A DNA stretch of 20,423 nt. It comes from Stentor roeselii (taxonomy: Eukaryota; Ciliophora; Heterotrichea; Heterotrichida; Stentoridae). A model generated the notes under the pieces. That model saw nothing but the letters and a program-made list of their open reading frames with translations. It did no database searches and had not been told where the DNA came from. Every line of letters begins with the position of its first letter. Within the stretch, counting starts at the first letter, position 1. The position numbers were made by a program, and so were the translations under genes. Below are positions 1,935-20,423 of this stretch, piece by piece. The stretch spans positions 1-20,423 of the forward strand of contig RSEH01000424.1 in the NCBI GenBank assembly GCA_006503475.1. The letters are read 5' to 3'.

Positions 1935-2702
1935 CTAGCCGTTCCTTCTTAACTGGTTGTTTAAGTCTTCTTCGAACTCGTCCCAGACCCTCTTCTGACG
2001 GGGTTCTCTGTAGTAATCACTGGGATAAGGCCTTGGGAACATTAACTTTGACACGATCATGTAAATTAATAAACAACCGAACAAGTAACTTGCAATTGAA
2101 AAGCTTTTAATCATTTGTTCCTCTTCTTCATTGGCACTTTGCTTGAAATGTCTTTTTTTAAATAATTCGTCAAATATCTTCTGATTTTGAGAATCGTAAT
2201 CTGGGTTAGATTGAGTTGTTGTTGAACTGTAAAAATATCTCTTTCCTGTCCTTGGATCGTAAAACTCGTAATATTTTGTACGTTTTTTCTGACGTTTTCT
2301 TGAAGTTTCTGTATTATTCTCAAAAAAATCGTCGAAGTCTTTCTGAAATGAACTTTTACTTTCATAGTGTTTTCTGTAAAACTCCTGCCATTTTTCATGC
2401 TCGTTTCGCTGATAGTAATGATGCTTGTTGTAATTTGGATTTCTGAAATGAAAACCTTGACTTGAAAAATCTGATGAATCTGATGAGTCATATGAAGCTT
2501 TACTTGTCTCGTTTCCTAAGACGCTCCAGGCTTCTCCGAGTTCTTTGAACTTTTCTTCATTTCCTGTTTGGGAATCTGGATGGTATTGCTTTGCCAGTCG
2601 GAGATATGCTGAACGGATTTCAGACTTTGAAGCAGTTTTGGTGATGCCGAGAATTTTGTAGTAGTCCTTTGAGGAAAATGACCTGAATATCTTACTGAAC
2701 AT
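1935..2702 (-). CDS. Membrane-anchored J-domain protein, probably mitochondrial (copy 1)
   Basis: A 255-residue DnaJ-type co-chaperone, expected to stimulate an Hsp70 ATPase. The J domain spans about 12-72, with the HPD motif at 41-43 and the block GEAWSVLGN after it. A Tyr/Arg/Lys-rich middle follows, then one hydrophobic segment at about 201-222 and an acidic tail. There are no Gly/Phe-rich or zinc-finger regions. The open frame continues upstream to 2939, but I start at the ATG at 2700-2702. It places a Ser/Phe/Arg/Lys-rich, mitochondrial-presequence-like stretch (MFSKIFRSFSSK) directly before the J domain, and the upstream part is low-complexity Asn/Lys/Ser that looks like translated leader. 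The J domain is clearly related to the next gene. Mitochondrial location is inferred from the N-terminus only. Confidence 0.8.
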   Translation of the reverse strand: MFSKIFRSFSSKDYYKILGITKTASKSEIRSAYLRLAKQYHPDSQTGNEEKFKELGEAWSVLGNETSKASYDSSDSSDFSSQGFHFRNPNYNKHHYYQRNEHEKWQEFYRKHYESKSSFQKDFDDFFENNTETSRKRQKKRTKYYEFYDPRTGKRYFYSSTTTQSNPDYDSQNQKIFDELFKKRHFKQSANEEEEQMIKSFSIASYLFGCLLIYMIVSKLMFPRPYPSDYYREPRQKRVWDEFEEDLNNQLRRNG

Positions 2703-2961
2703 CTTTATAAAGTCATTTTTATAAATTTTTAAATGAAGGAAAATTGTAAGGATTGATTTTAGATTATTGGGATTTTTTTTTTGAGGGTTTTGGGGTTTTG
2801 AATGAGATGGTTGAGAATTTATCAAGTGTTGATTGATTTTGAATAATTTATTAGAATTTGGTTGATTTAGAGTTGAATTATATGCTAAACACTTTTCACT
2901 ATTAGAAATAAATAGGAAATAGTAATATAAACAACTCATTACCCTTTACAAATATCTTACT
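2703..2961. other. AT-rich leader/spacer between the two J-protein genes
   Basis: This 259-bp stretch has almost no C on the plus strand (one C between 2715 and 2884), so the minus-strand leader is almost G-free. It contains GGGTTTTGGGGTTTTG at 2785-2800. An open frame on the minus strand crosses it, but the translation is low-complexity Asn/Lys/Ser and not believable as protein. Confidence 0.5.
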
Positions 2962-3501
2962 TCAATCATTATCATCCTCATAATATTTCCTTTCCCTCTT
3001 GTGCCTAAAAAAATCTTCAAAGCTTTCCCCATATCTCAGCCTCTCATGGCCATCCTCTTCAAAAAAACCAAAAAAAGTTCCAACAGCACAAATAAATAAA
3101 ATAAAAAAAGCCCACCTCAAAGGGTATTTCCGAATAAATTTCCTAACAAAAGGAATATTCATAACCCTCCTCAACAATTCAGCCTTAACAGGGTCATGTT
3201 TGAAAACATTAAACCTTTCAAATTCACTCACTTCCTCATTTCTCTCTCTTTCAAAACCCTTTCTTTCTTCACCAGTCTCCAAATCATAAATTTCTCTATT
3301 TTTTTGATTTCCTAAAACACTCCAAGCTTCTCCAATCTTCTTAAATTTTTCAGTATCACCAGTGGGAGTATCTGGATGATAAATTTTCACAAGTTTCAAA
3401 TAAGCTTCTCTTATATCTTCTCTTTTCGCATCTTGCTTCACGCCCAAGGCACGATAATAGCCGCGACTGTCAGAGAGTCTTCTTATGAGTGGGCATCTCA
3501 T
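2962..3501 (-). CDS. Membrane-anchored J-domain protein, probably mitochondrial (copy 2)
   Basis: A 179-residue J-protein. The N-terminus is Arg-rich (MRCPLIRRLSDSR). The J domain spans about 14-74 with HPD at 42-44 and the same GEAWSVLGN block as the neighbouring J-protein. A charged linker follows, with one transmembrane segment at about 129-147 (WAFFILFICAVGTFFGFF) and a short charged tail. It is shorter than copy 1 because the Tyr-rich middle region is missing. The two genes lie in the same orientation and probably arose by tandem duplication. Its stop is TGA, which helps show that TGA is a terminator in this genome. The start ATG lies 21 bp from the ATG of the divergent gene at 3523. Role inferred: co-chaperone for a membrane-associated Hsp70, perhaps in mitochondria. 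Confidence 0.8.
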   Translation of the reverse strand: MRCPLIRRLSDSRGYYRALGVKQDAKREDIREAYLKLVKIYHPDTPTGDTEKFKKIGEAWSVLGNQKNREIYDLETGEERKGFERERNEEVSEFERFNVFKHDPVKAELLRRVMNIPFVRKFIRKYPLRWAFFILFICAVGTFFGFFEEDGHERLRYGESFEDFFRHKRERKYYEDDND

Positions 3502-18142: not shown

Positions 18143-19213
18143 ATGGACCAAGTCTTTGAACTTGCTTCTCGAAGGATAATTAAAGGAGATTGTCTTGAAT
18201 TCACGAAGATTATTGAAGAACACCCTGGAGCTGTTAATCAGGAAGTTAATGGAGAAACGCTACTGCATATTGCTTGTGACAACGGAAAAACTGATATCGT
18301 CGAAATCATTTTGAATGCTGGATGCGAGTTAAATAAACTGAATGATGAAGGAGAAACTCCTCTGCATTTAGCAGTTTACAGAGGGTATAAAAATATTGTG
18401 ACTCTTCTTTTAAAGCATAAAGCTGACCCTTTATTAAAAAATTTGCAGGGAAAAGACTCTTTTACTTATGCTAGAGAGTTTGATGAGATAGAAATCATGA
18501 AAATTTTAGATACCTTTCGAGAGTTGAATACTGATGACTTGTGTTATAGTTACTCGTCTGAGAGTTCTGTGATTTTTACTCCTGTTTCTGCAAAATACTT
18601 GAATTTTCTGTCACCTGGTGATCACCCTGTTGTTAATTTTGATATCGTTCACAGTGAAATTTCAACTTTTCACTCTGGAGGGCTTTTCAATCAGAATGAC
18701 AAAAAAAACTGCCCTCATTTAACGAAGACTGTCAGCAACTTCTCTGTAGAAGACGTTCTAGACTTTTTGGAAAGTTTGAAACTTAGAAAATACTTCAAAA
18801 ACTTCATATCTCATGGATTTGATTGTTTTGATTCACTTCTTCTGCAAATGAAAACTCCTTTGAAGATTGACTTGAATGTCTTAAAACTACTGGGGATCAC
18901 TGATGAAAATGACATGAAAATCATCGTTGAAAGTTTACAAAAACAGTCAGTTGGCTGTTTTGTTGAAACACGGTATCAGAATCTTTTTCTTTTATTGGAA
19001 GATATTAACTTGGAAAATTACTACCTCAACTTTTCTGACTCGCATTTGGTTAAACTTGATCAACTGGTCCTTGAAGCGAAAAAAAATATGAATTTCCTTG
19101 AGAGATACTTGGAGGACTCTTTGAAAATTATGAAGTATGGTCATAGGCTTAGGATTATTGGACTGCTTCAGGCTCAAGAAACCTCTTCGAATACAAGATG
19201 CTTGCTTTTATAA
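18143..19213 (+). CDS. Ankyrin-repeat and SAM-domain protein
   Basis: A 356-residue predicted cytosolic protein. Ankyrin repeats lie at about 37-66 (NGETLLHIACDNGKTDIVEIILNAG) and 69-100 (EGETPLHLAVYRGYKNIVTLLLKHKA), with a degenerate one at 103-127. A Ser-rich linker follows. A SAM domain spans about 199-266 (FSVEDVLDFLESLKLRKY.. LGITDENDMKIIVESLQ), and a second SAM-like helical block about 277-345 (LLLEDINLENYYLNF.. HRLRIIGLLQ). The arrangement resembles ANKS-type adaptors, which assemble signalling or ciliary complexes, but the exact partner is unknown. An in-frame TAA upstream supports the first ATG. There is no signal peptide or membrane segment. Confidence 0.8.
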   Translation: MDQVFELASRRIIKGDCLEFTKIIEEHPGAVNQEVNGETLLHIACDNGKTDIVEIILNAGCELNKLNDEGETPLHLAVYRGYKNIVTLLLKHKADPLLKNLQGKDSFTYAREFDEIEIMKILDTFRELNTDDLCYSYSSESSVIFTPVSAKYLNFLSPGDHPVVNFDIVHSEISTFHSGGLFNQNDKKNCPHLTKTVSNFSVEDVLDFLESLKLRKYFKNFISHGFDCFDSLLLQMKTPLKIDLNVLKLLGITDENDMKIIVESLQKQSVGCFVETRYQNLFLLLEDINLENYYLNFSDSHLVKLDQLVLEAKKNMNFLERYLEDSLKIMKYGHRLRIIGLLQAQETSSNTRCLLL

Positions 19214-19280
19214 TTTTAAATTTGAAGTAATTAACTAAGAATCTTATCTTATTCTAACTATTTTACACCAGTAATTTTTA

Positions 19281-20342
19281 ATGGCCTTCAACCCCGTCAG
19301 CCTAGGTCTTCCCAGTGACTTTGTGCTGACAAGTTTTTCAAAATACAAAGGATGAGGCTGCAAGCTTTCCAAATCCCGTCTGCGTAATCTTCTCGAGTCA
19401 TCAGTTTCCAACCCATTGAAATCCGAATCTCCAGACAGTTCAATAGTCCGCCTTTCGAATTCTCAATACCTGATCTCTACAATAGACTACTTCTACCCAT
19501 TAGTAACAGACCCTTACCTTCAAGGTCAAATAGCATGTTGCAACGTGTTAAGCGATTTATACGCCTTAGGTGTGACAAGATGTGACAACATGTTGATGAC
19601 CCTGACAGTAAGTTTCCAGATGACAGAAGAATCACAAGAAATAGTTTCCAAGTCAATGATGCAAGGTTTCAACGACATGGCATCAAAGGCAGGGACCTCT
19701 GTGACTGGTGGACAGACAATCATGAACCCTTCTCCCATCATCGGAGGAGTCGCGATGAGCGTGGTCAACGAAGACGAATTTTTAACACCCTGCAGAAGCC
19801 AGCCGGGCGACTTGATCCTGTTGACGAAGCCGATCGGGACTCAAATCGCGGTGAACCTCTGGGAATGGCTCGGCACCTGCCCTGAGTACCTCGACACCTT
19901 CCCTGAAAGACCCAGCGACGAAGAGATCACAAGGATTTATCACCAGGCCTGTGAAAGCATGGCAAGTCTCAATCTCAATGCCGCGAAACTCGTGATGAAG
20001 TTCCAGGCTCATGCTTGCACTGATGTCACTGGATTTGGAATTCTTGGACATGCGGAAAATCTTGTCAGTATTCAGCATCAAGAGGTTGATTTTGTTTTTA
20101 GGACTTTACCGGTTATACATGGTGTTATGAAAATCGATAAAATGGCACCTTTCTTTATACTTAAAGAAGGACTCTCTGCGGAAACTAGTGGAGGACTTTT
20201 AGTTGTTGTTGAAAGGGATAAGGCGGATTTGTTTTTGAAGGAGTTTAAAGAGTTGCAGGGAAAGGAGGCTTGGATTGTTGGAGAAGTCGTTTGTGGAATG
20301 AGAAGAGTTGTTTTGGATGGATTGGAGATTTTGGAAGTTTAA
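19281..20342 (+). CDS. selD: Selenophosphate synthetase (SelD/SPS), predicted selenoprotein with in-frame TGA
   Basis: Makes selenophosphate from selenide and ATP, the selenium donor for selenocysteine synthesis. Reading from the ATG at 19281 through TGA at 19353-19355 as selenocysteine gives 353 residues, close to the roughly 350 of bacterial SelD. The N-terminus (FNPVSLGLPSDFVLTSF) matches SEPHS proteins. The TGA is residue 25 in the context KG-U-GCK, exactly where the family has its catalytic Cys or Sec. Downstream are D52, TIDYFYPLVTDPY (68-80), NVLSDLYALGVTRCDNML (88-105), GTSVTGGQTIMNP (138-150), CTDVTGFGILGH and ETSGGLL. An in-frame TAA precedes the ATG. Starting at the next Met (19416) would lose residues 1-45 with the active site, Lys23 and the glycine-rich N-terminus. 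The alternative, that TGA means Trp here, is argued against by TGA serving as a stop in other genes of the window. Confidence 0.88.
19353..19355 (+). other. Recoded UGA codon (selenocysteine) in selD
   Basis: In-frame TGA at residue 25 of the synthetase, between GGA (Gly) and GGC TGC AAG (Gly-Cys-Lys). Homology resumes in the same frame on both sides without any indel, so a frameshift or an intron is not needed. The position is the known Cys/Sec site of the family. Confidence 0.88.
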
Positions 20343-20344
20343 GG

Positions 20345-20400
20345 TAAGTGACAAGTGAATGTCCTGGACAAAGTGGGAAGGGATATGAGTCATGTTCTTA
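20345..20400 (+). promoter_or_regulatory. Candidate SECIS element in the selD 3' region
   Basis: A SECIS-like fold starts 13 bases after the stop codon for its core. GUGA (20355-20358) provides the 5' UGA. It is followed by 11 nt and then AAA (20370-20372) in the apical loop, and GA (20387-20388) closes the quartet. Helix II pairs 20359-20365 with 20380-20386 (7 pairs, two G-U). Below the quartet, GTGAC (20348-20352) can pair with GTCAT (20389-20393), or TAAG (20345-20348) with CTTA (20397-20400). The UGA-to-AA distance fits the eukaryotic consensus, but helix II is short, so it needs a model-based search. Confidence 0.42.
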
Positions 20401-20423
20401 ATTTCTGAGTTAATTTATTGAGT

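Follow-up and report, generated by a model that had tools for sequence, protein, structure and literature searches.

The window analysed here, 20,423 nt long, is an entire contig, C377, of a Stentor roeselii genome that comprises 44.4 Mb in 522 contigs. At 19281..20342 on the plus strand it carries the coding sequence of a predicted selenophosphate synthetase, SPS2, of 353 residues. The frame contains a single in-frame TGA, codon 25 at 19353..19355 (+) within the motif KG-U-GCK, which from the translation and a phmmer alignment is predicted to encode Sec, and translation ends at a TAA at 20340-20342. Genes for BBS1 and CFAP96 are also found in the window (Pfam), and two adjacent DnaJ-like genes lie on the minus strand at 1935-3501, the first recognised by Pfam and the second by reading its sequence. 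As the contig ends 81 nt past the SPS2 stop, the 3' UTR of this gene is visible only in part. No continuation of the contig was found, and it ends on the same sequence as another contig, C281.

The earlier note had claimed that homology to SelD/SEPHS runs unbroken across the TGA at the catalytic site, and the phmmer alignment bears this out. Residues 2-352 form one uninterrupted alignment to selenide, water dikinase 1 (9hjt, 5.8e-88), which we take to be the human protein. The TGA falls opposite the Thr of KGTGCK in this protein, and SPS2 lacks 13 residues that selenide, water dikinase 1 has after its N-terminal part. The NCBIfam selD model gives 228.9 bits (cut-off 125) and Pfam finds both AIRS domains (PF00586, 51 bits; PF02769, 60.9 bits), i.e., the homology covers the full SelD/SEPHS enzyme. 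At the catalytic GxGCK position, the Sec or Cys expected of such an enzyme is represented at codon level by the UGA, in a genome that holds Sec machinery. The same note placed the start of an automatic annotation at Met46; this does not stand, as codon 46 is TTG (Leu) and the first ATG past the TGA is codon 104. A bacterial-style ORF list does open the downstream frame at the TTG of codon 46. An ATG-only annotation would therefore lose more of the protein than previously stated.

The inference that this organism decodes Sec is supported by the machinery genes of the genome, together with a SECIS element behind the SPS2 stop that recurs at nine Sec-GPx genes. A genome without tRNA-Sec or EFSec had been named as grounds for abandoning the inference, and both genes are present. 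The tRNA-Sec gene scores 64 bits against an Rfam gathering score of 47 and has the anticodon TCA (ARAGORN), while the other four matches of the search are Ser and Leu tRNAs under the cut-off. Only the match over the cut-off is counted, because at E 0.001 the search gave matches in 14 of 14 control genomes, over the cut-off in five. The eEFSec gene (L008) reaches 227.6 bits on the selB model, under the cut-off of 242.25; its best PDB match is eEFSec 5izk (4.5e-117), and it has the eukaryote-specific Pfam domains euk_SelB_III and eEFSec_4th. SecS scores 525.2 bits (cut-off 224.85), and the SBP2 gene (L030) has a single PDB match at E 0.1 or better, to SBP2 (2e-22). Thus, tRNA-Sec, SecS, eEFSec and SBP2, all of which the note proposed to look for, were recovered, whereas the fifth component, PSTK, is represented by a weak candidate only. 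This candidate, L092, reaches 31.5 bits to TIGR03574 against a cut-off of 290.5, and two of its three PDB matches are PSTK (3.2e-5 and 5e-5). Another locus, L040, was rejected as PSTK since it is KTI12 (243 bits), and L092 is the better candidate of the two.

One full-length SPS gene was found in the genome, SPS2 itself; the search otherwise matched only a 36-residue fragment, located on C281. This fragment is the 3' end of SPS2 and closes the contig, with 183 of 186 nt identical to the window end (L018 on C281, 1068-1253, against window 20238-20423), and its stop is TGA where the window has TAA. By blastn, the similarity of C281 to the window does not extend upstream of this copy. The copy is either an allele, an alternative junction or an assembly branch.

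The stops of 17 gene-like window frames, which we chose from the ORF list, are TAG in seven, TAA in seven and TGA in three. BBS1 is among the TGA-terminated frames, with its stop just past the GAE domain. In the genome as a whole, in-frame TGA was found in none of 44 matches of four families (SelB/EF-Tu-like 0/23, L7Ae 0/9, Rdx 0/9, MsrA 0/3), but in nine of nine GPx matches, one in each and always at the catalytic residue. These counts show that UGA is a stop codon which is recoded in particular genes, and they indicate a code of the standard type. TAG was rejected as a sense codon: the SecS gene (L007) contains two in-frame TAGs, each within an intron-like 15-nt stretch. We take these stretches as introns because they have GT...AG ends and leave a clean frame once removed. 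Introns of 15-16 nt and a standard code are described for Stentor in a previous report (PMC9505925), and with the BBS1 and CFAP96 genes of the window the intron size suggests a heterotrich ciliate.

The predicted SECIS element, which the earlier note did not contain, follows SPS2 closely on the plus strand. Its core, GTGA-N11-AAA-N14-GAG (20355..20389, with GUGA at 20355-20358 and GAG at 20387-20389), starts 12 nt past the TAA stop, and the same element stands behind nine of nine GPx genes. Helix II is formed by 20359-20369 with 20376-20386 (feature 20359..20386). In SPS2, 8 of its 11 positions pair, as seven contiguous pairs followed by three mismatches and one pair more. The apical AAA lies at 20370..20372, and two of its A columns are invariant in all ten elements. 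Helix I, 20346-20352 with 20389-20395 (feature 20346..20395), lies below the quartet and shows covariation over the ten sequences. At the base of helix II, the letters of the tandem G.A pairs (GA...GA) are invariant in 10/10, and a helix II with apical AA agrees with the available description of the SECIS model, which has 7-15 bp (PMC11227280). In an Rfam search of 19000-20423 with the threshold relaxed to E 10, no SECIS was reported, and the two matches obtained are weak and unrelated.

The nine Sec-GPx genes (L031-L039, on C60, C12, C310, C9 and C15) each have their own SECIS, and eight of them sit as four neighbouring pairs. The core can be written as GTGA-N12-AA-N13/14-NGAG in all ten genes, i.e., the nine GPx and SPS2. 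Counted from the first nucleotide of the stop codon, GTGA is at index 15 in SPS2 and seven GPx and at index 16 in two GPx, and the stop-to-GUGA distance is therefore 12-13 nt throughout. In L039, which shifts frame in the assembly, we used the stop that is in frame with the downstream part of the gene. The shift occurs after about residue 108, and the downstream part resembles the neighbouring gene when read in a different frame; possible causes are an intron, an indel or a sequencing error.

Covariation was analysed over the ten aligned elements, which had been chosen by their core letters. In helix II, 80% of cells are paired and all 11 pairs are changed on both sides. The covariation score is 0.772, whereas the shuffles average 0.350 and none of 500 attains the observed score; for two of the five measures, the counts of doubly changed pairs and of pair types, four of the 500 did reach the observed value. 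When the helix II partners were slid, the score fell to 0.277 or less. In helix I, 70% of cells are paired and six of seven pairs are changed on both sides, one pair being formed in only 3 of the 10 sequences. Together, 17 of 18 pairs show changes on both sides; because the nine GPx are paralogous to each other, these counts do not represent independent events. Of all ten elements, that of SPS2 is the weakest, with 3 of 11 helix II positions unpaired, and its single-sequence fold is not unusual (z -0.74; z -1.82 for a 94-nt stretch).

A hold-out model (R2), for which the nine GPx elements were the sole training set, was applied to the window without filtering. In this search, the element behind SPS2 ranks first with 25 bits (E 5.4e-4), and the next match has 17.2 bits (E 0.077). 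This score partly rewards the stop itself, since R2 begins with two columns that correspond to the final AA of the TAA stops, and the C281 copy with its TGA stop reaches only 21 bits. Over 38 sources (143 kb), the E-value of the SPS2 element is 0.0037 and the background rises to 20.4 bits, in L001, behind no gene of interest. The bare core has 242 matches on both strands of the 44.4 Mb genome, compared to 126 for the reversed control. By our own arithmetic, this gives 2.7e-6 per position and hence a probability of about 8e-6 that the core falls by chance at any of three offsets downstream of a particular stop. None of the other 16 window frames has a looser core less than 100 nt past its stop; elsewhere in the window this looser core occurs only twice, both times on the minus strand.

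From the 242 core matches, 100 were listed and 50 of those were examined, and the resulting list of selenoproteins is incomplete. Ranked by pairing among the 100 matches listed, four known GPx hold the first two ranks and two of the three places tied for third, and SPS2, which is outside these 100, would rank sixth. Eleven loci out of the 50 examined comprise two known GPx, two candidates and seven others, the frames of the latter being rejected as noise by eye. The candidate L074 (215-688 and 139-202, minus strand) is Selenoprotein-S-like and ends in GGUR; its best Pfam match is Selenoprotein_S with 19.5 bits, under the cut-off of 29.8. The candidate L051 (902-1474 and 1491-1550, plus strand) has a PUB domain of 71.2 bits (Pfam) and ends in KKGUR. 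In both, the gene ends as TGA-CGN-TAA and the GTGA of a SECIS-like element lies at stop+29. A model of all ten elements puts these two on top among 48 such loci (32.8 and 31.3 bits, next 21.1), scores that are partly circular since core letters served to select the loci. For algae, SELENOS and PUB have both been listed as families with Sec-containing members (PMC7539508), which makes the two candidates more credible but less new.

Several alternative readings of SPS2 bear on this interpretation. Some ciliates decode UGA as an amino acid, and the 15-nt introns of this genome are ciliate-like, so UGA could be an ordinary sense codon with, e.g., Trp at codon 25. However, TGA ends 3 of 17 window frames including that of BBS1, it is absent in-frame from the 44 matches of four families while present in 9/9 GPx, and all three Trp codons of SPS2 are TGG. 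The genome also has both the SECIS and the Sec machinery, and neither the catalytic site of SelD nor the active site of GPx is a position where Trp is expected. We consider it extremely unlikely that UGA is an ordinary sense codon here. That the UGA is merely a stop, in a dead gene or upstream of the true start, would fit the presence of the downstream frame in a standard ORF list and the partial second copy of the 3' end on C281. Yet the alignment to selenide, water dikinase 1 includes the codons ahead of the UGA, a structured SECIS is retained, and a start at the ATG of codon 104 would lose the catalytic site. No second full-length SPS was found in a genome with nine Sec-GPx genes, and a UGA that is only a stop is highly improbable.

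A sequencing or assembly error, in which the TGA stands for TGC or TGT (Cys), has in its favour that a single assembly is available and that the C281 copy stops short of the TGA site. If the gene encoded Cys, however, nothing would explain why it retains a SECIS that matches the type and spacing seen in this genome, and we regard such an error as very improbable. The SECIS behind SPS2 could also be a chance match, with the true one past the contig end: with 25 bits in R2 it is the weakest of ten, the two candidates outside the R2 training set reach 30.8 and 34.5 bits, and background comes up to 20.4 bits in the 143-kb search. Against this stand the rarity of the exact core (242 occurrences in 44.4 Mb, or roughly 8e-6 for three offsets) and the lack of the looser core behind the other 16 frames, its two further occurrences in the window being on the opposite strand. 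In addition, the sole difference of the C281 copy inside the SECIS changes a helix I pair from G-U to A-U, and a chance match is considered unlikely.

Sec-containing SPS2 is known across Sec-using eukaryotes (PMC4561486), and the present gene is one more member of this known kind. As far as the accessible text of that paper goes, it resembles SPS2/SEPHS2 in having Sec at the catalytic position (here a UGA, predicted), Sec machinery, a 3' SECIS and AIRS domains. It differs in the 13 missing residues, in the GUGA/NGAG core and in a SECIS that hugs the stop, which is a variant. Compared to the canonical eukaryotic SECIS in the available parts of PMC8704476 and PMC11227280, the G.A quartet, helices I and II, the apical adenines and the location 3' of the coding sequence are shared. 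However, GUGA takes the place of the usual AUGA in 10/10 genes, and GU for AU ahead of the first GA is described as rare (PMC11227280). The core given as UGAN/KGAW in the accessible part of PMC7409322 is likewise not followed on its 3' side, where GAG replaces KGAW in 10/10, and the ten genes share the short distance to the stop. The eSECIS-like elements of Lokiarchaea, as partly described in PMC11227280, also place the signal at the very end of the gene, but their AUGA often overlaps the stop, whereas here the stop is 12-13 nt upstream of GUGA.

The closest comparison is with Stentor coeruleus, for which the available text of a 2020 report (PMC7409322) states that all seven GPx have Sec, that SECIS elements were undetected and that tRNA-Sec was not found. 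Both genomes have Sec in every GPx, several such genes and a CXU subgroup, but the present genome has both SECIS and tRNA-Sec. A search by titles and the beginnings of abstracts, with most subscription journals and bioRxiv preprints outside its scope, found no heterotrich paper on such an element.

Collectively, the sequence evidence makes it very probable that SPS2 is a selenoprotein, in which the UGA of codon 25 would be read as Sec via tRNA-Sec, eEFSec, SBP2 and the stop-proximal SECIS. By analogy to the known pathway, from which SBP2 binding, Sec decoding and enzyme activity are taken over, SBP2 would sit on the compact SECIS whose core starts 12 nt past the stop and call in eEFSec, which would deliver tRNA-Sec to the UGA of codon 25. 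SPS2 would then make the selenophosphate that SecS uses for Sec-tRNA. As SecS needs selenophosphate for this step, the sole full-length SPS gene found would depend on its own product. The organism may also regulate this selenium donor enzyme itself, as the earlier note proposed.

We lean towards the wider view that heterotrich-type ciliates have a distinct SECIS subclass, GUGA...AA...NGAG, fixed 12-13 nt past the stop, or at stop+29 when Sec is next-to-last. Its odd core and position might then be why Sec-GPx of Stentor were reported without SECIS. At 12-13 nt past the stop, the element would lie at about the leading edge of the terminating ribosome. If this is true, the stop+29 placement in the SELENOS and PUB candidates would reflect a minimum spacing from the recoded UGA. 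For the present genome, our results answer the puzzle, set out in the accessible part of the 2020 report (PMC7409322), of Sec-GPx without visible SECIS or tRNA-Sec. They also provide an exact, testable signal with a position rule, and a pattern with which to search for selenoproteins that would be cut at the UGA by ordinary annotation, and these genes may serve as a natural test of how close a SECIS can be to the stop.
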